From Ferruginibacter sp. HRS2-29 (GTDB lineage: Bacteria; Bacteroidota; Bacteroidia; Chitinophagales; Chitinophagaceae), in contig NZ_RJUB01000006.1 in NCBI RefSeq assembly GCF_024343615.1, forward strand, positions 1-64,000: a stretch of DNA of 64,000 nt. Direction: 5' to 3'. Of the stretch, positions 38,852-57,709 are shown in pieces; positions within the stretch are counted from its first letter, which is position 1, and each line of letters starts with the position of its first letter. The notes under the pieces were generated by a model, which saw nothing but the letters and a program-made list of their open reading frames with translations, had not been told where the DNA came from and did no database searches. A program made the translations under genes and the position numbers.

Positions 38852-41800
38852 ATGAAATTTTTGAATAGCTATATACGGGCAGGTTTGCTCTTTACTTGTT
38901 TGTTATCAATCGCAGGCGAAGCTGCTTATGCCCAACGAGCGGTTCCGGCAGCTTATCCGGCCGGTACCAATATAAATTTTGTCCGCACCTGGGATGCCAC
39001 TGCTCCCGAGCAGGACGGCAATATCCTCACCACACGTCTTTTGAAGGATGTGAAGACGGCTACCCAATACATCGACGGGCTTGGCCGCCCCTTACAGACC
39101 GTCATCAAACAAGGCTCACTGGTTACTGGCGGATCTGGCCCAACTGATATGGTGAGCCCGGTGGAGTACGACGAGTTTGGCAGGCCACGGTTTCAATATT
39201 TGCCTTACGCGGAAGCGTCTTCAGCAGACGGAGCGTTTAAAACAAACCCTTTTGCGGCGCAGGCTACTTTTATGAATGCCCAATACAATACTACCCAGGG
39301 GGATAGCTGGTATTATGGGCAAACTGATTATGAAGTATCCTCATTGAATCGTGTTCTGAAAACTATGGCACCGGGCAATAACTGGGTCGGAGCTGGCCGC
39401 GGTGTGAGTATGCAGTATTCCATGAATACGCCGACAGATGCGGTGCGTATCTGGAACGTGGCCAACCAGTCTAATGCGTTCGGGAGTTATACCAGCCCGG
39501 GAGCTTACCCAGCCGGCACTTTGTATAAAAATATCACAACTGATGAGAGAGGTAACCAGGTGATCGAGTTTAAGGATAAGGAAGGCAAAGTGATCCTGAA
39601 AAAAGTACAGCTGACCGCTTCACCAGATCTTGGTGGTGGCAGTGGTCATAGTGGCTGGTTGTGTACCTACTTCCTGTATGACGACCTTAATAATTTGCGG
39701 TGTGTGATCCAGCCGCGGGGAGTGGAGTTGATTAGTTCTACCTGGTTGTTAGATGATGCCACCTTCATGGCAGAGCAATGCTTCCGGTACGAATATGATA
39801 CCCGCAACCGGATGAACCGTAAGCAGGTGCCGGGTGGCGGTGAAACCTGGATGGTATACGATGCGCTCGACCGGGTGGTGCTGACCCAGGATGCCAGCCT
39901 GCGTGGCGGACAAAAAAAATGGTTGTACACGCAATACGACGAACTTAACCGCCCGGTGGCTACCGGGCTCATTACGGATAATGTAAATTTCAATAACCTG
40001 GCCTATCATACAGCCTTAGCTTACTCCAGCACGGCTTACCCCAACCTGGCTAATTACAGCGGTTATGAAGTGCTGACCAACACTTTTTACGATAATTACA
40101 ATTGGCAATCGACCTATACAACAGGACTAACCGCCGGTTATGATAACAGCTTCGATACTTATTTTGATCCGGTGAGCAATACCACCTGGCCCTACGGCCA
40201 ATCCAACACGGCTAGCACACTGCTGAAAAATATGGTAACAGGCAGCCGGACAAAAATATTGGGTACTACCAGCTGGTTGTACACGGCACTTATTTATGAC
40301 GCTAAAGGACGGGTGATCCAGGCTAAAAGCACCAATAATTTAGGCGGCGTGGATATCAATACCACGCAATATACCTGGGCGGGGCAACCGCTGGTAACCG
40401 TATCCAAAACAAATATATCCGGTACCAATGCGCAAACCAGTGTGACCGTATCGCGGATGACCTATGATGACCTGGGCCGGGTGGTAAAAACACAGAAGAG
40501 AATCAAAAACTCGCTGGTAAACGGCGACGCGATGCCGGGTTATAGTACCATCAGTACTGTGGCTTACAATGCCCTGGGCCAGGTGAAGAATAAAAACGTA
40601 GGCTCCAAAGCGGTTTCCCCGACAGATCCGCTGGCAAAGCAGGACTATGAGTACAATATCCGTGGCTGGCTGCTATCGTCCAACAAAGGTTACCTTGCTA
40701 CGACCAACAACGATCAATATTTTGGGTATGAGCTCGGGTATGATAAAAATGCTTCGCAGGGAACTTTTGCGGCGCAATACAATGGTAATATCAGCGGTAC
40801 TATCTGGAAAAGTGAAGGCGACCAGCAAAAAAGAAAATACGATTTTACTTATGATCCTGTAAACCGCCTGATGTCAGCAGACTTTAATCAATATACCGGA
40901 AGCTCGTTCAATAAAACTGCCAACGTTGATTTTAGCATGAAAATGGGAGATGGCAGTACCTATACCTCTGCATACGATGCGAATGGGAACATCAAGCAGA
41001 TGCAGCAATGGGGCTTATTGGTCAATACCAGCGGGCAGATAGATAACCTTCGTTACACCTATAATACCAACAGCAATAAACTGAAAAGCGTAAAAGATTT
41101 TAACAATGATCCCATTACAAAACTGGGAGATTTTAAAACCAATACTACGCACCCTCAAAATTCCACTAAAGCCGCCCTTACTACTTCCAGCACGCAGGCA
41201 CAGTTTGATGCGATAACGGACTATACTTATGATGTGAATGGTAATCTTGCTTTAGACAATAACAAAGGTATCGGCGCCATCGCTTACAATTACCTGAACC
41301 TTCCACAAAACATCACCGTGACCAGTAAAGGCACCATCGCTTATACCTATGATGCGGCCGGCACCAAGCTGAAGAAAGTCACTACCGAAAGCCCTTCTAC
41401 CGCCAATGGCAATAAAACGATTACTACTACCACCCATTATATCGGCGGCCTGGTATACGAAAGCAAAACTACCAGCCCGGCCAATAGCCCCAATGACGAT
41501 TACAGCAATGTGCTGCAGTTTTTACCGCAGGAAGAAGGACGGGTGCGCTTTAAAGCAGGCACTACACCGGCGCTGTTTTACGATTACTTTTTGAAAGATC
41601 ACCTGGGGAATGTGAGGATGGTGCTGACAGAAGAAAAGCAACAAAATGTATATCCTGCTGCCACCATGGAAGGTACTTACGGAGGCACTACCAATAGCAT
41701 GGTCAACTATGAGAATCAATTTTATAAAATCGACAACACGAAAATTGTAACTGAACCATGGACAGGCGAAACGGTCGCAAATACAAAGTTGTATTATAAT

Positions 41801-43345
41801 TACAATGTATCCCCGCCGGGCAATCCGAGTTACCCAACCGGTTGTACCCCTACACAAACAGATGGCAGCAGCAAAGTATATAAATTGAATGCGACCACTA
41901 ACAAAACAGGGCTGGAATTTGTAATGAAAGTGATGGCAGGAGACGTGATCGACATCATGGGCAAATCGTACTACGTAAACACCAGCAACATTACCAATGC
42001 CAATTCTACTGCGCTCGATTTACTTGGACTGATGACGAATTTTTTAACCGCTCCTACTAATGCCGCAGTGGGTAAAGGTTTTACAGCTGGCATTTTGAAT
42101 ACTGCAAATAATGGCGTTATCCCCAATTCTTTTTTCAGGGGTAACAACAGCGAACCGACCACTACCATTCCTAAAGCCTACATCAACTACATATTCTTTG
42201 ACGAACAATTCAATTACAAAGGGGGTGGCTTTAGCCGGGTGGGTGCCACGAGCGGTTCGGTATGGGATCACTGGCAAAATGACCCGGCACTACAAAACCT
42301 TGTAGCACCCAAAAATGGATATATATTTGTGTACGTTAGCAATGAAAGCAATTTAGATGTGTTCTTTGATAATTTACAGGTGATCCACAAGCCGGGGCCG
42401 ATATTGGAGGAAACGCATTATTATCCGTTCGGGTTGACGATGGCGGGGATAAGTTCGAAGGCAGCGGGGCAGTTGGAAAATAAACTGAAGTATAATGGTA
42501 AGGAAGAGCAGCGGAAGGAGTTTAGTGATGGAAGTGGGCTGGAGTGGATGGATTATGGAGCGAGGATGTATGACGGGCAGGTGGGAAGGTTTTTTACCCA
42601 GGATCGATTTGCAATAAAATATAATCATTTGTCCCTTTATCAATATGCGGCCAATGACCCCGTAAAAAATATTGATGTTAACGGCGATAGTGTATGGGTC
42701 ACTACTCAAAATATTTATAACAATAAGGGAGAAGTGACAGGAATTAATTATACATTACATGCGACCATCAAAGTTCTTAATTTGGCCGATGGCGAATTAA
42801 ATATAAAATCTTTGGCTTCAGATTTTCAAAATCAATTGTCTGGAGCCTTGTCAGGTTGGGACTCGAAAGATATATTTAGTACGGATATTCAAGTATCTGT
42901 GGCAAATTCTATGGATGATGTTTTTGATAGTGACCATTTGTTAGCAATAGTGGATGATGTTGAGTCAATGACTGATATATTTAGTGATAAAACTGTTGGT
43001 ATGGCTAGGCTTAATGGGAAAATTGCTTATGCTGAAAAAACTTCATTCGGTATGCTCTTAAATACAATGACTCACGAGTTCGGACACAATCTTGGATTAG
43101 GCCATAGTGATGATCCTGATAACTATATGTCTAACGCTAAAAGTGATAGACAAAATTTTACAGGTACACAAATCAAAACAGCCTTCAACAATTCAATGCA
43201 AGGAAAACTTAATAAAGGATCTAATAGTGAAAGAGCCATTCGAGCATCTAACAATTGGTTTTGGCATAATTCAACAAATACGGAGCCTTATGATTTTAAT
43301 GTCAAACAAGGACAACGAATTCCAGCAACTGTAGATAGTTTTTAA
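38852..43345 (+). CDS. Full-length RHS protein with metzincin-like peptidase tip
   Basis: A 1497-residue polymorphic toxin. A signal peptide (~1-28, ending AAYAQ) predicts Sec export. A DUF6443-like N-terminus ([18 protein letters not shown]) leads into YD repeats (~300-900) and a pre-core module (~930-1180), then the RHS core: [50 protein letters not shown] (~1245). After [20 protein letters not shown] the toxin tip differs from all neighbours and carries H1408[10 protein letters not shown]1418, the HEXXHXXGXXH zinc motif, with a Met-turn candidate NYMS near 1426. A lipoprotein gene follows 11 bp later as probable immunity factor. Confidence 0.9.
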
Positions 43346-43761: not shown

Positions 43762-43813
43762 CATTCAAAACAGCTTTTCCCCCCTCTGCCCCCTTCTGGC
43801 GGGAGTGATCCCT

Positions 43814-44374: not shown

Positions 44375-44611
44375 TTACTGCATAGTTGCAACAAAATCTT
44401 TGAACGTCTTTTTAGTTATAATGGTATCAATCAAACGGAACACCATTGCTTTATCTTCTTCGTGCAGCGTGCTGATAAGTTGTAATTGTTCCATTGCTGT
44501 TTTATCTTCTATTTTTTCTTCGGTAGGAACTTTGCCTTTAAAGTTCACCAGTTCATCAAGTGTCATACCAAAATGCTTTGCCACTTTAGCCAGGGCGGTA
44601 ACAGAAAGCTC
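44375..44611 (-). pseudogene. 3' remnant of an XRE-type HTH regulator
   Basis: The ~78 residues at the C-terminal side (LAKVAKHFGMTLDELVNFKG, then KVPTEEKIEDKT and LHEEDKAMVFRLIDTIITKK) match the end of a Cro/C1-type regulator. The helix-turn-helix N-terminus is replaced at about 44611 by the cassette-edge repeat, so the gene is cut. The frame continues into the repeat as meaningless sequence. Confidence 0.7.
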
Positions 44612-44751
44612 CCGTTCCCCCTTTCTGGCGCGAGTGTTCCGCAGGATCACTCGTGTCTCTTCAAGGTGGCAGGTCTGCGACCGGGATAAGAACCAATACA
44701 CTTCCAAAATTACTGCAATAACAAATGTGCAACAGAAAGCCACACTCCTTA
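44612..44751. repeat. Cassette-edge repeat, copy 1
   Basis: Starts with CCGTTCCCCCTTTCTGGCGC and the small hairpin CGAGTG-ttccgcaggat-CACTCG, then runs ~100 bp to CAACAGAAAGCCACAC. A copy with few changes stands at 47022-47175. It ends where RHS homology of toxin cassette 1 begins. Confidence 0.85.
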
Positions 44752-44809
44752 CCCTGCATTAAGTTTCGGAGGCGCATCCGGAAGTACGGAAGTAACTAAT
44801 CAGTCGGCC

Positions 44810-46402
44810 ATGTGGGAGAAAGCCGACGGTACCCCATTCGATGTAACGGGTAGCCGTACCACCAATGCGCAACTACAGGCAGCTACTACACTAGTGCCTG
44901 CAACAGGTACTTACAGTTTGCTGGTGCGCAGCAGTACTGGTAAGATCGGCGCAGGGAAGCTGCTGAAAGTGATGAGCGGCGATAAGATACATGCTACGGT
45001 ACAATATTATTTCAGTGCCAATACCGGAGGTTCCGGCACCGGATTGAGTACGCTTGTGAGTGCGCTGACCAATATACTGACTAACAGCGTGGCTAGTTCA
45101 GGCGTAGTAAAATCCAACGCGGCTGCACTATCTTCTGCGGTAAATGTAGATCCTGCCGCAGCCACTTACTTTACAAACGTTAACAATGCTTCGGGTTCTA
45201 CCCGTCCCAAGGCATACCTGAATATTTTATTTTTTGATGAACAATTCAGGTTTGATGCCGCAGCCAGCTACACTGAACAGATCGGTACTACGAACCCCGG
45301 TCAGATAATCGTAGCATTAGGCAGTGCTAAACAAGCAAAGAAGAATGGATATTGCTATATTTACATCAGCAATGAAACCAATGATATGGTGTATTTTGAT
45401 AACCTGACATTGAAGCATGAGCGGAGTCCTATTCTTGAAGAGACGCATTATTATCCATTTGGGGTACCTATGGCCGGGATATCTTCCAAGGCCGCAGGCA
45501 GCATGGCAAATAAGTTCAATTACAATGGCAAAGAAGAACAGAACAAGGAGTTCAGTGATGGCAGCGGTTTGGAGTGGTTGGATTATGGTGCGAGGATGTA
45601 TGATAATCAGATAGGGAGGTGGAATCATGTTGATCCTTTGGCCGACAAAATGAGAAGGCATTCATCTTATAATTATGCTTTTGACAATCCGATAAGATTT
45701 ATTGACCCAGATGGAATGAAAGCAAGAGATTGGTATAAAAATGAGGGTGGAGATTTAACATGGTTTGAAGGGAGTCGTAATCATATTGGATATCAGAATG
45801 TAGGAAAATCTGGAAGCTTCAATTCTTACACAGAATATAATGGCGAAAAAGAACTGGTAAGTTCATATCGACTTAATTCTGATGGAACTGCAACTAAAAA
45901 TGGAGTGGCCTACTACGGTGGTGCAAGTATTTCGACAGAAGGAGGACATACTATAACAACAGGTGCTAAAAGTGATATCTATACTATCAATCAAGAGGAA
46001 CCTCGTGATGGAGGAGGAATTGTATTTACATCAAGTTCTGGCCAAGGAGGAGCTCCATATGCACCTAATTCTGATTCAAAAGTTGAGAATATAGATGTTC
46101 TTATGCAAACTTTTTCAATGACTAGTAAAGTCGGTCCTTTAAAACAGCCTGATTTTACAGATCTTTGGGATGCGACAAAAATGTTTATTAAGGTTGGGAA
46201 ACAGGTAGCGACAGATATGATGAAAGATCAAAATTCCACGTCGGAAACTCAAAGTAGATGGAATGATTATCCTAAACCTGGAATTAAAGCAAATACCGTT
46301 GTAAACTTTGGTACTATAAATTACTTAAAAATAGATGATTCGACCTGGGAGCAGGTATATTTACCAGCTACCGATACAAGTCCTGTCTATTTAAAAAAAT
46401 AA
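44810..46402 (+). CDS. Truncated RHS toxin cassette 1
   Basis: RHS homology starts without a start codon at about 44752, the first ATG is at 44810 (530 residues). A pre-core module of the second type ([38 protein letters not shown]) is nearly identical to cassette 3. The core follows ([58 protein letters not shown]), then from ~305 a unique tip ([38 protein letters not shown]) of unknown activity. There is no signal peptide or promoter, so it is probably silent until recombined into the full-length gene. An immunity gene follows after one base. Confidence 0.8.
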
Positions 46403-46403
46403 A

Positions 46404-47015
46404 ATGAAATATTGTTATATATACATATTACTTTTTCTCTCCTGTAAATCGCCAGCAAGAATTGAAAATTGTGACAAGAATATCAAAAACCTTTTGAAAA
46501 AAAATAGTGATAGGTTAGAGGTGAATGATAGTTTTAGCAACGGTGCGATTTCTATGATGGTTGATAAAAAAACATCTTCTGTTTTCGGCGCTTATTATTT
46601 TTATCCATCTGGAGAATTAAAGTCCTATAAATTTTTTATGTCACCACCAACTTATGTATATAACGAAGAATTTGATTCTTTAGGTAATCAATTTAAAACA
46701 GAGGGTAAATCGTTGATGGCGCACCTGTTCAGAAAAGCAGATTCTCAAAACGTAGAATTTACTTTTCTATTTTTTTCACTCAATAAAAATTATAGAAATA
46801 TTCACATCAGATCTAGTATAGGGAGTAATCAATCATTTGAGGAAATACAACCTTACAAATTACTTACGAATGTTCATTTCTTAACATTTCAATTACCAGT
46901 TGTAAAATCTTTTAATAAACTTTCTCTTTTCACAACTTACGAAGTAGAAAATAAGTGCTCTGGAACATATCAGGTTTTTATTGATACTGCCGTGTTCCAA
47001 AATTTTCAGCTTTGA
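46404..47015 (+). CDS. Probable immunity lipoprotein of cassette 1
   Basis: A 203-residue protein starting one base after the toxin stop, so translation is probably coupled. The N-terminus KYCYIYILLFLSC is a lipoprotein signal. The mature part has no known domain; landmarks are YYFYPSGELKSYKFFMSPPT and VENKCSGTYQVFID. AT content is clearly higher than in the RHS core, as for the other tips and immunity genes here. Confidence 0.6.
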   Translation: MKYCYIYILLFLSCKSPARIENCDKNIKNLLKKNSDRLEVNDSFSNGAISMMVDKKTSSVFGAYYFYPSGELKSYKFFMSPPTYVYNEEFDSLGNQFKTEGKSLMAHLFRKADSQNVEFTFLFFSLNKNYRNIHIRSSIGSNQSFEEIQPYKLLTNVHFLTFQLPVVKSFNKLSLFTTYEVENKCSGTYQVFIDTAVFQNFQL

Positions 47016-47021
47016 TAAATA

Positions 47022-47175
47022 ATTCCCCCCTTCTGGCGCGAGTGTTCCCCCTTTCTGGCGAGTGTTCCGCAGGATCACTCGTGTCTCTTCAAGGTGGCAG
47101 GTCTGTGACCGGGATAAGAACCAATACACTTCCAAAATCACTGCAATAATCAATGTGCAACAGAAAGCCACACCC
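47022..47175. repeat. Cassette-edge repeat, copy 2
   Basis: TTCTGGCGCGAGTGTTCC occurs once, then a second partial copy leads into the same hairpin and ~100 bp as at 44612-44751. About 100 bp of unassigned AT-rich sequence separate it from the RHS homology of cassette 2, which begins near 47278. Confidence 0.85.
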
Positions 47176-47305
47176 GCCATTGATCTTAAGTCATCCAACA
47201 ATTTTTTTCTTAAAAGATAGTTAACCGTAAATATGTTCAATATCGATGTGCCCTTTTTCATTTGTAAAATAATCCCAAACAGATGGCAGCAGCAAAGTAT
47301 ATAAA

Positions 47306-48763
47306 TTGAATGCGACCACTAACAAAACAGGGCTGGAGTTTGTAATGAAAGTGATGGCAGGAGATGTGATCGACATTATGGGTAAATCATACTACGTCAA
47401 TACTACCAACATTACCAATGCCAATTCTACCACCCTTGATGTATTGGGTTTGATGACCAATTTTTTAACTGCTCCTGCCAATGCAGCTGCGGGCAAAGGG
47501 TTTACAGCAGGCATTTTGAATACCGCAAATAGTGGTGTTATCCCCAATTCTTTTTTCAGGGGTAACAATAGTGAACCAACCACTACCATTCCTAAAGCGT
47601 ATATCAACTATATATTTTTTGATGAACAGTTCAATTACAAAGGGGGTGGCTTTAGCCGGGTGGGTGCAACGAGTGGATCAGTATGGGATCACTGGCAAAA
47701 TGATCCTGCACTACAAAATCTTGTAGCACCCAAAAATGGATATATATTTGTGTACGTAAGCAACGAAAGTAATTTAGATGTGTTCTTTGATAATTTACAG
47801 GTGATCCACAAGCCGGGGCCGATATTGGAGGAAACGCATTATTATCCGTTTGGGTTGACGATGGGGGGGATAAGTTCAAAAAGTGAAGGTAGTTTGGCAA
47901 ATAATAAGAAATGGAATGCAGGCAGCGAATTAAATACAAATTTTGATATAAATCTGTATGAAACACAATTTAGAAGTCTGGATCCTCAATTGGGAAGATT
48001 TTGGCAAATAGATCCTAGGCCAAATTTGGAGATGAGCCCGTATTGTTCTATGGGCAATAATCCGATTTTGTTAAATGATCCTTTAGGTGATACGACAAGA
48101 ATTATGATTGGAGATCAATATTACAATTTACAAAGAAATAAGGATGGAGGAATTTCCTTTTATGATAATAACGGGAAAATGTACAATGGAAAACTAGACG
48201 AGTTTTCTCAGAGTGTTTTGACAACCGTTAATTCTATCGCAGGAATTAAAGATGAGGAAGTACAATCTCGATTAACTGAAGTTTTGGGTGGCACAAAGAT
48301 GATTACTGTAATGGACGGGTTACAAAACTTTGATGGAAAAACAGGTGATTTGTCCTGGTTCGATAATAAAGCTGGAAATAGAATAATGAGCAATAATGGT
48401 GGTAATATAGAGAAAGATGGACCATTTACTAAAGTTACACGGGATTCTGATTTAGAATTTATTCATGAATGGCTAGGTCATGGTTTTCAATATTCAAAAG
48501 GAATGTTGAATCATGATAGAATACTCCCATTTACGGAAAATGGCAGACTTATTGGTTGGCCCGAAAAAGTTGAAGCTGATGCTGCAACTATCGTTACAAG
48601 AGCAGCAGAGGCATCTGGTAGACCACAAATGGGACAGCCTGTTTACATTGAAGACGCAAAACGGCCGGATGGCACTCCAATACAACGGCTATTTCACGTA
48701 ATTCCTCGAGGCTATCTCTTAACAAATAGTGAATCTCAAAAACCACCTAATTACAGGCGCTAA
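47306..48763 (+). CDS. Truncated RHS toxin cassette 2 with HEXXGH peptidase-like tip
   Basis: RHS homology begins near 47278 within the pre-core module of the first type ([40 protein letters not shown]), almost identical to the full-length gene; the first usable start is TTG 47306 (485 residues). The core is shorter ([35 protein letters not shown]), followed by a tip with H387-E-W-L-G-H392 in LEFIHEWLGHGFQ and a downstream acidic EKVEADAATIV. This is an HEXXGH motif, a variant zinc-peptidase signature known from M49 peptidases. No promoter or signal peptide is present. Confidence 0.78.
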   Translation: MNATTNKTGLEFVMKVMAGDVIDIMGKSYYVNTTNITNANSTTLDVLGLMTNFLTAPANAAAGKGFTAGILNTANSGVIPNSFFRGNNSEPTTTIPKAYINYIFFDEQFNYKGGGFSRVGATSGSVWDHWQNDPALQNLVAPKNGYIFVYVSNESNLDVFFDNLQVIHKPGPILEETHYYPFGLTMGGISSKSEGSLANNKKWNAGSELNTNFDINLYETQFRSLDPQLGRFWQIDPRPNLEMSPYCSMGNNPILLNDPLGDTTRIMIGDQYYNLQRNKDGGISFYDNNGKMYNGKLDEFSQSVLTTVNSIAGIKDEEVQSRLTEVLGGTKMITVMDGLQNFDGKTGDLSWFDNKAGNRIMSNNGGNIEKDGPFTKVTRDSDLEFIHEWLGHGFQYSKGMLNHDRILPFTENGRLIGWPEKVEADAATIVTRAAEASGRPQMGQPVYIEDAKRPDGTPIQRLFHVIPRGYLLTNSESQKPPNYRR

Positions 48764-49326: not shown

Positions 49327-49365
49327 TAGAAAGTTCTCCCCTCTTGCGCCAGGGGCGGATTACTT

Positions 49366-49635
49366 AAATTCGGAGGTGAAGATGTGCTGTATAATGTACA
49401 AGATGCAGGAAATTTTATGACTGGGTTAGCATTTATATTAGTTGGGATGTCGGGTACCACCACCCAATTCGGAGCGCAAATAAATGAATTTGGTAAAGAC
49501 ACGGATGCAGATCAAAGAGCTATTGGTAATGGAGCAAATTAAAATGGTGTGAAATTGTCGGGAAGTAATGCACAAGATTCTATGAATTCGTTACGCGAGG
49601 CAGCTAAAGCTATTTTCTCATTCAATTGGTTTTAG
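49366..49635 (+). pseudogene. Remnant of an RHS toxin tip with an in-frame stop
   Basis: KFGGEDVLYNVQDAGNFMTG and FGKDTDADQRAIGNGAN form the first part; after an in-frame TAA at 49540-49542 the same frame goes on as NGVKLSGSNAQDSMNSLREA and ends at 49635. No start codon or RHS core precedes it. It is a decayed tip, preceded by a junction piece (CTCTTGCGCCAGGGGCGG). Confidence 0.6.
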
Positions 49636-49638
49636 CAT

Positions 49639-49758
49639 ATGAAATATAGTAAAATTGCAATAATCCTATTTATTAGTTTTATCCTTCGCCGTTGTTGGTG
49701 TTATCACCAACAACTTCCCAGATTTTCCCCTATTGAGTCACTCAGCGAGGTGAGTTAG
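49639..49758 (+). pseudogene. Immunity gene start cut by a hairpin element
   Basis: ATG starts four bases after the remnant toxin and encodes MKYSKIAIILFISFIL, a signal peptide, then runs at codon ~16 into the CGCCGTTGTTGGTG hairpin and ends soon after. This looks like an immunity gene interrupted by the element at 49684. Confidence 0.5.
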
Positions 49759-49851
49759 CATGTTAAAGTTATCAATAGCCGAATAATAAAACTTTCTTTC
49801 TCTTTCTAAGTTGCAAGATGTTATTGGTGATAACACCAACAACGGCGAAAA
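49684..49851. repeat. Inverted repeat left of cassette 3 (CGCCGTTGTTGGTG type)
   Basis: The left arm CGCCGTTGTTGGTG-ttat-CACCAACAAC is itself a hairpin; the right arm (49819-49851) is the reverse complement. RHS homology of cassette 3 starts at the very end of the right arm. A second copy stands at 52338-52427. Confidence 0.92.
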
Positions 49852-52033
49852 TGATCCCACTACAAAGCTGGGAGACTTTAAAACCAATACTACACATCCG
49901 CAAAATTCCACTAAAGCCGCCCTTACTACTTCCAGCACGCAGGCACAGTTTGATGCGATAACGGACTATACTTATGATGTGAATGGTAATCTTGCTTTAG
50001 ACAATAACAAAGCTATCGGTGCCATCGCTTACAATTACCTGAACCTTCCACAAAACATCACCATAACCAGTAAAGGTACCATCGCTTATACCTATGATGC
50101 GGCAGGTAACAAGCTAAAAAAAGTCACTACCGAAAGCCCGTCTACCGCCAATGGCAATAAAACCATTACTACTACCACCCATTACATCGGCGGCCTGGTA
50201 TACGAAAGCAAGACCACCAGCCCGGCCAATAGCCCTAATGACGATTACAGCAATGTGCTGCAGTATTTACCGCAGGAAGAAGGGAGGGTACGGTTTAAGC
50301 CAGGCACTACACCGGCCTTGTTTTATGATTATTTTTTGAAGGATCACTTGGGGAATGTGCGGATGGTATTGACAGAAGAAGCGAACGCCGACACCTACCC
50401 TGCATTAAGTTTCGAAGGCGCATCCGGAAGTACGGAAGTAACTAATCAATCGGCCATGTGGGAAAAAGCCGATGGTACCCCATTTGATGTAACGGGTAGC
50501 CGTACCACTAATGCGCAACTACAGGCAGTTACTACATTAGTGCCTGCAACAGGTACTTACAGTTTGCTGGTGCGCAGCAGTACTGGTAAGATCGGCGCAG
50601 GAAAGTTGCTGAAAGTGATGAGTGGAGACAAGATACATGCCACCGTGCAATATTATTTCAGTGCCAATACCGGAGGTTCCGGCACCGGATTGAGTACGCT
50701 TGTGAGTGCGCTGACCAATATATTGACTAACAGCGTAGCTAGTTCCGGCGTAGTAAAATCCAACGCGGCGGCACTATCTTCTGCGGTAAATGTGGATCCT
50801 GCAGCAGCCACTTACTTTACAAACGTTAACAATGCTTCGGGTTCCACCCGTCCTAAGGCATACCTGAATATTTTGTTTTTTGACGAGCAATTTAAGTTCG
50901 ATGCCACAGCCAGCTACAGTGAACAGATCGGCACTACGAACCCTGGACAAATAGTGGTAGCATTAGGCAGTGCTAAACAGGCAAAGAAGAACGGATATTG
51001 CTATATTTACATCAGCAATGAAACCAATGACATGGTTTACTTTGATAACCTGACATTGAAGCATGAGCGGAGTCCTATACTGGAAGAAACTCATTATTAT
51101 CCGTTCGGGTTGACGATGGCGGGAATAAGTTCGAAGGCCGCAGGAGTGACACCTAATAAAGAAAAGACTTTTCAGGATCAACGTTTTGATGATGATTTAG
51201 GATTGAACTGGGTGCAGTTCAAATGGCGGAATCATGATCCCCAGATCGGCAGATTTATAGAAATCGATCCCCTTGCTGATAAATATGTTTACAACAGCAC
51301 ATATGCTTTTTCAGAAAATAAAGTTACTTCTCATGTTGAGTTAGAATGCTTGGAAGCTGTTTTAATGGAGTCGATGCAGGAAGACCAAGATTGGCTAAAT
51401 ATTTATGATGGAGATAGGGATAAATTAGTTGCACGTCAAACTCAAGAAGGCAAAGGAATGGCTTTGGCATTAGGGGTTTCATTAGGGATTTGCTTTCCTG
51501 AACTTGGGCAGCTTCTTATCGCTTCTTACATGTGCGGAGTACCTCTTAATGGATCTCCACAATTGATGGCCGAATCAGTCGCCTCTCAAGTTGTATCAGA
51601 AGGAGGAGCAACAGCTTCAGGAGTTTCATTAGCAGATAAAGCACGAGTTCTTACGGCTGGAGGAGAAGTAGGAATGATGGACGGAACTGCAAACTTAGTA
51701 GTTGACGCAAAAACAGGATTTTTCAACATAAAATTAACTACAGGTTCAGAAACCGGGATTATTACCGGAGAAGTCAATATTAATAACAATGCAATTAAGT
51801 TTAGTGATATCGAAATAATTAATGCCAAAGGAGGATTAGGAACTATTGGGCAACAAGGTTCTATAGGGGCTACTTCTTTTAGCAAATTAACGAAGGAAAT
51901 TACCGAACTGAGTAAGGCGGGTGGGTTTAATAAGGCCACAGTTGAATTTTCACGACTGAGACCACCAGGCTCAAATCTTCCAGACACAGATACAAGAACT
52001 ATTACCTTATTTGATATAACACCAAACCCATAA
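49811..52033 (+). CDS. Truncated RHS toxin cassette 3
   Basis: RHS homology starts at about 49850 ([15 protein letters not shown]) and covers the last YD repeats, the pre-core module of the second type (as in cassette 1) and a third core variant (LNWVQFKWRNHDPQIGRFIE). The frame opens at TTG 49811 inside the hairpin arm (740 residues); no signal peptide exists. The tip from about 520 on (HVELECLEAVLMESMQEDQD, hydrophobic Gly/Ala-rich helix LALGVSLGICFPELG) ends with LSKAGGFNKATVEFSRLRPP, of unknown activity. The last part could be a small nuclease or deaminase but no catalytic set is visible. An immunity gene follows after two bases. Confidence 0.8.
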   Translation: MQDVIGDNTNNGENDPTTKLGDFKTNTTHPQNSTKAALTTSSTQAQFDAITDYTYDVNGNLALDNNKAIGAIAYNYLNLPQNITITSKGTIAYTYDAAGNKLKKVTTESPSTANGNKTITTTTHYIGGLVYESKTTSPANSPNDDYSNVLQYLPQEEGRVRFKPGTTPALFYDYFLKDHLGNVRMVLTEEANADTYPALSFEGASGSTEVTNQSAMWEKADGTPFDVTGSRTTNAQLQAVTTLVPATGTYSLLVRSSTGKIGAGKLLKVMSGDKIHATVQYYFSANTGGSGTGLSTLVSALTNILTNSVASSGVVKSNAAALSSAVNVDPAAATYFTNVNNASGSTRPKAYLNILFFDEQFKFDATASYSEQIGTTNPGQIVVALGSAKQAKKNGYCYIYISNETNDMVYFDNLTLKHERSPILEETHYYPFGLTMAGISSKAAGVTPNKEKTFQDQRFDDDLGLNWVQFKWRNHDPQIGRFIEIDPLADKYVYNSTYAFSENKVTSHVELECLEAVLMESMQEDQDWLNIYDGDRDKLVARQTQEGKGMALALGVSLGICFPELGQLLIASYMCGVPLNGSPQLMAESVASQVVSEGGATASGVSLADKARVLTAGGEVGMMDGTANLVVDAKTGFFNIKLTTGSETGIITGEVNINNNAIKFSDIEIINAKGGLGTIGQQGSIGATSFSKLTKEITELSKAGGFNKATVEFSRLRPPGSNLPDTDTRTITLFDITPNP

Positions 52034-52337: not shown

Positions 52338-52427
52338 GGTCATTTTCGCCGTTGTTGGTGTTTTCACCAACAACTTCTATCAAGCCTCAAGATGTCGTTG
52401 GTGAAAACACCAACAACGGCGAAAAAT
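52338..52427. repeat. Inverted repeat right of cassette 3 (CGCCGTTGTTGGTG type)
   Basis: The arms are TTCGCCGTTGTTGGTG-tttt-CACCAACAAC and the complement ending CCAACAACGGCGAAAA. The element closely matches the one at 49684-49851 but has a shorter middle, so cassette 3 with its immunity gene is bracketed by two copies. Confidence 0.92.
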
Positions 52428-56742: not shown

Positions 56743-56887
56743 TAGGGGTTTAGGGGGTTTAGGAAAATATTACTGCTTCCTAAGCCCCTAAAATTCTAAA
56801 CCCCTAAACTTCTAAACCCCTAAACTTCTAAACCCCTAAACTTCTAAACCCCTAAACTTCTAAACCCCTAAACCTCTAAACCCTAAA
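56743..56887. repeat. 8-nt word inverted repeat (CTAAACCC)
   Basis: Left arm AGGGGTTTAGGGGGTTTAGG; the right arm repeats CTAAACCC and CTAAACTT alternately about six times. It lies between two minus-strand genes and reaches to the stop codon of the hydrolase. Confidence 0.92.
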
Positions 56888-57709
56888 CTAACTCTGAAAG
56901 AATTCCAAGAGGTCTTTATTGATCGTTGCAGCTTCGGTAGTAGGCATGCCATGCGGGAAGCCCGGGTAGGAGATCAGTTTGCCATTTTTCAGCAATGCCA
57001 CAGCTTTCGGTGCAGTGATCGCATAGGGAACTATCTGGTCGTCTTCGCCATGTAGCACCAGCACGGGGATATCCACACTTTTCAGGTCTTCGGTAAAATC
57101 TGTTTCAGAAAAGGCTTTTACACAGTCGTGGTGTGCTTTTACAGAACCCATCATCCCCTGGCGCCACCAGTTGTCGCGTACACCCTGGGATATTTTTGCC
57201 CCTTCGCGGTTGTAGCCATAAAATGGTAAGGTAAAATCCTGGAAGGTTTGTGAACGGCTGAATGCAGTCCCGTTGCGGATATCGTCGAATACGGATGGAA
57301 GTACTCCATCGGGGTTGCTGTCGGTTCTTACCATCAGTGGAGTAACGGCGCTGATGAGCACGGCTTTTGCCACGCGGCCTTTTCCATATTTTGCAACATA
57401 ACGGATCACTTCGCCGCCGCCGGTAGAATGGCCCACGTGGATGGCATCTTTGAGGTCGAGAGCCTGTACCAGTTCTGCCACATCAGCAGCATAAGTATCC
57501 ATTTCATGTCCTTCGGAAACCTGCGAAGACCTTCCATGCCCGCGGCGGTCATGGGCGATCACGCGATATCCTTTTTGCAGAAAAAACATCATCTGGTTAT
57601 CCCAGTCGTCGCCGGACAAAGGCCAGCCATGATGAAAAACGATCGGCTGGCCTGTGCCCCAATCCTTGTAATGAATTTCAGTACCATCTTTGACAGTGAT
57701 CTTGCTCAT
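56888..57709 (-). CDS. Alpha/beta hydrolase, non-haem chloroperoxidase type
   Basis: A 273-residue cytoplasmic hydrolase. The start at 57709 (MSKITVKDGTEIHYKDW) matches the usual N-terminus and length of the family. VFHHGWPLSGDDWDNQM (oxyanion loop), HDRRGHGRSSQ, the nucleophile VGHSTGGGE (Ser ~96), HGEDDQIVP (Asp ~224) and GFPHGMP (His ~253) form the full set. Such enzymes are esterases that also show perhydrolase activity. A perfect palindrome TATACCGGTATA lies ~70 bp upstream. Confidence 0.92.
   Translation of the reverse strand: MSKITVKDGTEIHYKDWGTGQPIVFHHGWPLSGDDWDNQMMFFLQKGYRVIAHDRRGHGRSSQVSEGHEMDTYAADVAELVQALDLKDAIHVGHSTGGGEVIRYVAKYGKGRVAKAVLISAVTPLMVRTDSNPDGVLPSVFDDIRNGTAFSRSQTFQDFTLPFYGYNREGAKISQGVRDNWWRQGMMGSVKAHHDCVKAFSETDFTEDLKSVDIPVLVLHGEDDQIVPYAITAPKAVALLKNGKLISYPGFPHGMPTTEAATINKDLLEFFQS

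Follow-up and report, generated by a model that had tools for sequence, protein, structure and literature searches.

What is the repeat that stands at the left edge of more than one truncated RHS toxin cassette, and how did it come to lie there? In the window, i.e. the whole 64,000-nucleotide stretch of Ferruginibacter sp. HRS2-29 DNA analysed here, a block precedes two such cassettes, and the initial annotation read it as an end sequence of the mobile cassette unit or a recombination site.

The block indeed recurs where it had been placed, at 44612-44751 and 47022-47175. By blastn, 44614-44745 and 47044-47173 align over 132 bp with 95.5% identity, and have an ungapped stretch of 116 bp at 97%; such a match is not chance. 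The CGAGTG/CACTCG hairpin noticed in the block is present, with compensatory changes in other genomes. A block fragment reported near 43783 exists too, although its position is 43792-43811.

A blastn search of the whole genome (5.07 Mb, 161 contigs) with a 140-base block query found a third long copy on contig C1 (C1:141772-141901), 90% identical over query positions 7-136. The remaining matches all fall within query positions 8-79, i.e. the REP part. With 47020-47260 as the query, 233 of the 241 bases are covered on C1 at 85%, and copy 2 is longer than earlier stated, its blastn homology to C1 spanning 47026-47273 at 85%. The block and its fragments comprise the following features.

44612-44749, plus strand: block copy 1, made of REP1 and RAYT 3′ untranslated sequence (the RAYT would be on the minus strand); blastn identity 95.5% to copy 2 and 90% to the C1 copy
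44625-44657, plus strand: REP1 hairpin A of copy 1, by hairpin comparison
44670-44684, plus strand: REP1 hairpin B of copy 1 (CAGGTCTGCGACCGG), by hairpin comparison
47022-47274, plus strand: block copy 2, longer, made of a partial REP, REP1, 3′ untranslated sequence and RAYT gene tail; homology to C1
47026-47048, plus strand: extra partial REP1 ahead of copy 2; pattern match at 47029-47048 with 0 mismatches
47055-47085, plus strand: REP1 hairpin A of copy 2, 2 bp shorter
47098-47112, plus strand: REP1 hairpin B of copy 2
47221-47274, minus strand: RAYT gene end, the last 17 codons (DYFTNEKGHIDIEHIYG) and stop, resembling C-terminal ends of RAYTs
43792-43811, plus strand: REP1 fragment, 2 mismatches to the pattern
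49336-49355, minus strand: short REP1-like fragment 3′ of cassette 2, by eye

The block corresponds to the 3′-terminal part of a RAYT (REP-associated tyrosine transposase) element and consists of the two-hairpin REP1 and the RAYT 3′ untranslated sequence. This identification follows from the tail frames, which resemble RAYT C-terminal ends, together with an intact RAYT on contig C126 that lies between inverted REP1-type sequences. In the RAYT tail frame, the C1 copy encodes LDQLHYNPVRAGMVLQPEQYLYSSAIHYFTNQKGLIDIAHIYG followed by a stop (NPVRAGMV...DIAHIYG, stop). The C126 RAYT, 200 aa long and ending in LDYLHENPVRAGFVYEPQQYIYSSAVDYYTDRKGLIKIEYL, is among the proteins that the tails of copy 2 and C1 resemble. 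It passes NF047646 (REP-associated tyrosine transposase) with 106.4 bits against a cut-off of 80 and is a Y1 HuH family gene, with PF01797 above cut-off.

The same association is seen in other genomes. Among 75 loci selected there for REP1, some of them overlapping, a RAYT occurs at 14, which come from 10 genomes; with the pattern relaxed slightly, every one of the 14 has REP1 no more than 500 bp from that gene. Upstream REP1 in the same orientation and downstream REP1 inverted is the rule in 13 of them; the exception, L127, has a distant RAYT. Both sides are occupied at L166 only.

In the window, the RAYT gene survives solely as the 17-codon tail. None of the three long block copies keeps an intact RAYT, and that on C1 is interrupted by a second REP family, REP2. 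A genome search for an intact copy of the block's exact RAYT found none, so the cognate pair was not seen whole. The elements in the window are dead fragments.

The left edges of the cassettes are set out below.

38852-43345, plus strand: full-length RHS gene, the reference for truncated cores; TIGR03696
44375-44611, minus strand: 3′ remainder of an RstR/XRE-type repressor gene, its 5′ end replaced by the block; NF041951, below cut-off
44750-46402, plus strand: RHS orphan cassette 1 (3′ core and tip), core homology beginning at the block end; TIGR03696 and core homology
47276-48763, plus strand: RHS orphan cassette 2, core homology beginning at the RAYT tail; TIGR03696 and core homology
49685-49850, plus strand: REP2 doublet (REPIN2) bordering cassette 3 on the left; a doublet on contig C19 is 85% identical
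49850-52033, plus strand: RHS orphan cassette 3, core homology beginning at the REPIN2 end; TIGR03696 and core homology
52343-52425, plus strand: REP2 doublet 3′ of cassette 3

All three truncated cassettes match TIGR03696, and their cores are 91–93% identical to other cores of the array by blastn. The mobile-element homology ends at 44747, 47273 and 49850 and the RHS core homology starts at 44750, 47276 and 49850, respectively, so every 5′-truncated cassette of the window starts within 3 bp of a REP or RAYT element end. The placement of the block at the left edge of cassettes 1 and 2 therefore holds in the window; as a general border marker it fails, with 129 of 134 REP1 sites in other genomes lying away from RHS cores. 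The two block-to-core junctions fall at different internal points of the RAYT element: one is in the 3′ untranslated region, the other 17 codons short of the stop. Such variation is at odds with a defined cassette end or recombination site.

On its left side, copy 1 abuts a broken repressor gene. The minus-strand frame ending at 44375 matches positions 37-106 of the 108-position RstR-type repressor model NF041951 (E 1.4e-7, 31.7 bits, under the cut-off of 80). About 36 first codons are absent and block sequence occupies their place; the match starting at model position 37 thus bears out the earlier reading that an XRE/HTH gene is cut at 44611, with the block replacing its 5′ part. A Pfam search of the remnant gave no match. 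An intact close copy of the gene, representing the empty site, was sought across the genome and none was found, the sole other match being 35% identical.

REP2 (CCGTTGTTGGTG/CACCAACAAC) forms about 22 clusters in the genome and occurs on both sides of cassette 3. The REPIN2 at its left edge interrupts a short signal-peptide-like frame. That frame follows a degenerate stretch at 49360-49636 between cassettes 2 and 3, which may be an older tip remnant; the frame, its interruption and the stretch were all read by eye. The related REP2 doublet on C19 likewise sits immediately to the left of a truncated RHS cassette, some 26 bp from it. Elsewhere in the window, 56764-56891 carries tandem 8- and 16-bp repeats of CTAAACCCCTAAACTT.

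These junctions suggest a history. An element bridging two truncated genes is the residue expected of deletion or unequal joining at mobile elements, and the block is very probably a RAYT/REP element end fused in this way to the cut left ends of the toxin cassettes, not a dedicated cassette end. The identity of the block is observed, and the order of events is what we infer from it. A RAYT element would once have lain downstream of RHS units and their putative immunity genes, an arrangement of which C1 keeps a remnant. Deletions or other joining events between sequences sharing little if any homology would then have removed the RAYT 5′ part and the next RHS gene's 5′ part together, leaving the RAYT-tail-to-RHS-core junctions. 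The REP2 doublet before cassette 3 would be the same outcome with the other REP family. REPs of this kind are presumed to be cleaved and mobilised by the RAYT in single-stranded form.

Alternatively, a whole RHS unit with its block was duplicated in tandem, and the border position was inherited rather than formed twice. The 95.5% identity of the two copies and their tandem order in the array agree with such passive copying. However, the copies end at different points of the RAYT and join the cores at different positions, and the core relatives differ as well, the core of cassette 1 being 92% identical to that of cassette 3 and the core of cassette 2 being 91% identical to the full RHS gene. 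Passive copying of the unit is therefore unlikely, although the REP end may have been duplicated ahead of the joins.

Do mobile elements edge other cassettes too? We surveyed the left edges of 12 truncated cassettes in HRS2-29, excluding a 13th that is cut by the end of contig C38. At six, the neighbour is firmly a mobile element (RAYT tail, REP2 doublet and tyrosine recombinase, two each). Four have weak or by-eye signs, namely one recombinase-like tail, one transposase-type HTH (E 0.0088, below cut-off) and two short palindromic repeats, and the last two have none. Among 33 orphan RHS frames of other genomes (shorter than 800 aa, some of them truncated at a contig end), a tyrosine recombinase stands at the left edge of two and a RAYT at none, by a search that also misses the window's two short tails. 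A RAYT at the edge of an RHS cassette is so far confined to HRS2-29.

In three genomes, an orphan RHS tip faces a tyrosine recombinase gene head-to-head, and one further such gene precedes a tip in the same direction. These pairs were found in stretches chosen for RHS.

L095:4620-5972 (C140 of HRS2-29): tyrosine recombinase, head-to-head; 108 bp from its assumed start codon to the YYPFG codons of the core
L191:5636-6877 (G392): tyrosine recombinase, head-to-head; 111 bp likewise
L217:4558-5610 (G427): tyrosine recombinase, head-to-head; 111 bp likewise
L014:4631-5428 (C38 of HRS2-29): tyrosine recombinase, same direction as the tip, 90 bp upstream
L014:4541, L095:5757, L095:7357, L095:12778, L191:6746, L217:4500 and L201:2105: YYPFG-start orphan RHS fragments

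The G392, C38 and C140 recombinases are 45–53% identical, PF00589 was found in the first two, and the G427 member was found by phmmer. A fifth, weaker match on C140 (L095:661-1050) lies away from RHS edges. A search of 698,870 further bases, which took in the window and partly overlapped, gave no family member at E 1e-5. Among 39 inspected orphan RHS frames, seven, belonging to four genomes, start at the YYPFG (or HPFG) core codons or only a few codons away, and an GTTCTTTGA-like motif was seen by eye 23–49 bp upstream in six of the seven. The YYPFG codons look like a fixed breakpoint. Direct repeats were sought as att sites around the recombinase-tip pairs and none was convincing.

A wider and rather doubtful proposal is that the left edges of Chitinophagales orphan RHS tips are generally made by DNA recombinases, i.e. 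RAYT/REP and the tyrosine recombinase family, not by homologous core recombination. The RAYT tails at cassettes 1 and 2, the REPIN2 at cassette 3 and the recombinases head-to-head with YYPFG tips would then be traces of one process that would create and move toxin-tip cassettes. The recombinase-edged RHS tips are something to test across the order.

Whether the block belongs to the RHS loci can be judged from its distribution. In HRS2-29, REP1 is a dispersed conserved palindrome with 11 loci, counted after tandem arrays were merged and three weak 3-mismatch matches dropped. Six of them have an RHS core within 3 kb, whereas 0.17 would be expected (P 5e-9), by a null that takes account of length only, not intergenic length, and with copies within one array not being independent. 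Collapsed by contig, the count is 4/9 (P 6e-6), and with the three weak matches 6/14. For REP2, 5 of 22 hand-merged clusters are near RHS against 0.33 expected. This pile-up exceeds what plain random insertion needs.

Other genomes give a different picture. REP1 with at most one mismatch occurs in 11 of 396 genomes of the order, HRS2-29 included. In the ten others, 5 of 14 sites have an RHS core no more than 3 kb away (G036 3/3, G382 1/2, G392 1/1, the rest 0/8), and 16 further genomes have 0 of 120. Over these 26 genomes together, 129 of 134 sites either share no contig with an RHS core or are separated from the nearest one by more than 3 kb, short contigs limiting such distance counts. REP1 is a general Chitinophagales REP with a local pile-up in a few RHS arrays. 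In G036, a distant genome of family f2, all three sites (L188, L189) are downstream of RHS tip frames and share their direction, which is also the case in the window.

REP1 might instead be retained at RHS borders, the hairpins having a putative role in ending or stabilising the transcripts of the putative immunity genes. Passages of PMC6006769 report that REPs stop transcription or stabilise mRNA, and copy 2 starts no farther than about 10 bp from the stop codon of frame 46404-47015, a putative immunity gene by position only. On the other hand, copy 1 follows the broken antisense XRE-type gene, and the absence of RHS cores near the 120 REP1 sites of the 16 further genomes also argues against retention. 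We regard this role as very unlikely to account for the block.

The cassette-end idea itself, which takes the block for the genuine terminus of a mobile RHS tip cassette or for a site of tip-swapping recombination, is largely refuted and now highly improbable. It would suit the three long copies, all of which lie in RHS loci downstream of an RHS gene and a putative immunity gene, the six REP1 loci in RHS territory in HRS2-29, and the G036 sites, all within 3 kb of RHS cores and in one direction. Against it stand the 129 sites away from RHS cores, the opposite of what would be seen if the block always lay at cassette borders, as well as junctions at differing points of both the element and the core. 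Moreover, neither cassette 2 nor cassette 3 has a long copy at its right end; after cassette 2 only the short REP1-like fragment at 49336 was found. The core site motif of the integron attC is GTTRRRY, and such a motif is absent from both strands of the block. A dedicated RHS recombination site was rejected on the genome-wide REP1 distribution. The first reading is thus partly right: the block is a mobile-element end, that of a RAYT/REP, but neither an RHS cassette end nor a dedicated site, given the sites off RHS and the different internal junctions.

The hairpins were characterized by comparison. REP1 begins with CTGGCGC and is without the canonical GT[AG]G tetranucleotide at the hairpin foot. 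A hairpin A pattern with its variable positions left open, run on GTDB genome contigs, matched 86 sites in 61 stretches, 60 of which are, by record title, from Bacteroidetes (Chitinophagaceae, Ferruginibacter, Taibaiella and others); the single Planctomycetaceae match looks like chance. Position pair 6/26, unconstrained in the pattern, is complementary in 79 of the 86 sites (GC 48, AT 27, CG 3, TA 1). For hairpin B, 92 sites were compared, six of them from HRS2-29 itself and recovered with a looser pattern. The stem reaches 4 bp or more in 85, and the loop is TGT or TGC in 69 of those; shuffled letters attain the observed stem length in a mean of 7.35 of 85.

In 38 chosen REP1 sequences, a subset of the sites, 93.6% of the cells pair. 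Cells changed on both sides number 80 versus 25.4 in shuffles, none of 500 shuffles being as high, and a slid partner reaches 13 at most. Two of the five covariation measures are not clearly above shuffles (pairs changed on both sides 29/500; further pair types 259/500), and related sequences can inflate the remaining ones. Since the search pattern fixed most hairpin A letters, hairpin B and pair 8/28 carry the covariation evidence. A single-sequence RNA fold of the block is not clearly better than shuffles (z −1.2, 22/200 as good), so the hairpin signal comes from sequence comparison. REP1 is a concrete, covariation-supported REP for Chitinophagales RAYTs. That the block is instead a structured non-coding RNA gene is almost certainly wrong, for two hairpins with compensatory changes would suit it but Rfam gave no match at the gathering threshold or even at E up to 1, and the inverted placement around RAYT genes fits transposon DNA hairpins.

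The RAYT/REP origin replaces the tempting idea of a purpose-built cassette end with a checkable history, in which the toxin-tip cassettes of this array are cut exactly at small mobile elements and the block serves as a breakpoint marker. In a literature search of partial coverage, mostly of titles, no paper was so titled as to place REP/RAYT elements at RHS cassette edges, and none dealt with REPs in Chitinophaga.

Among known systems, the closest are the RAYT/TnpA_REP elements with their REPs, especially subclass 2.6 (RAYT group 5), which passages of PMC6006769 describe as Bacteroidetes RAYTs with motifs NH[LIV]H, WQ and YIH[QN]NP and with atypical REPs without the GT[AG]G foot. The REP1 loci match the REP–RAYT arrangement described in part of PMC2817692. 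They share with these systems an NCBIfam-recognised RAYT, the inverted REP pair, copies elsewhere, the Bacteroidetes host, the missing foot and the atypical structure (PMC6006769 and PMC2817692, in the passages concerned). The C126 RAYT has NHLH, FWQQ and YLHENP, the last departing from the subclass consensus YIH[QN]NP as given in PMC6006769.

REP1 differs in being made of two hairpins side by side, with a stem that varies freely and a mostly TGY loop in the second, although the two-hairpin form may be in the published subclass 2.6 motif table. It is also common to several genera of the order, and its window copies are dead tails at RHS cores. Its copy number is low, with the 11 loci contrasting with the more than 100 that a passage of PMC2817692 gives as usual for REPs.

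REPINs and BIMEs are resembled by the RAYT-free REP1 doublets on C7 and in the C144/C153 array and by the REP2 doublets in the window, whereas the window REP1 copies are not doublets but single ends with a gene tail. The array in question is a 365-bp unit with a REP1 doublet, repeated in tandem at two contig ends (L012:1-1290 on C153 and the start of L013 on C144), which are probably one array broken by assembly.

As a side lead only, the rAID arrays (PMC12247911, in part) likewise have a tyrosine recombinase beside polymorphic-toxin related genes, but contain orphan immunity genes, not RHS tips. The displaced RHS C-terminal tips described in 2009 (PMC2935791, in the relevant passages) share the partial core, the tip and the following gene, downstream of a full RHS gene. 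In that model, homologous recombination between cores forms the core fragments, whereas the left edges in the window abut mobile-element tails.
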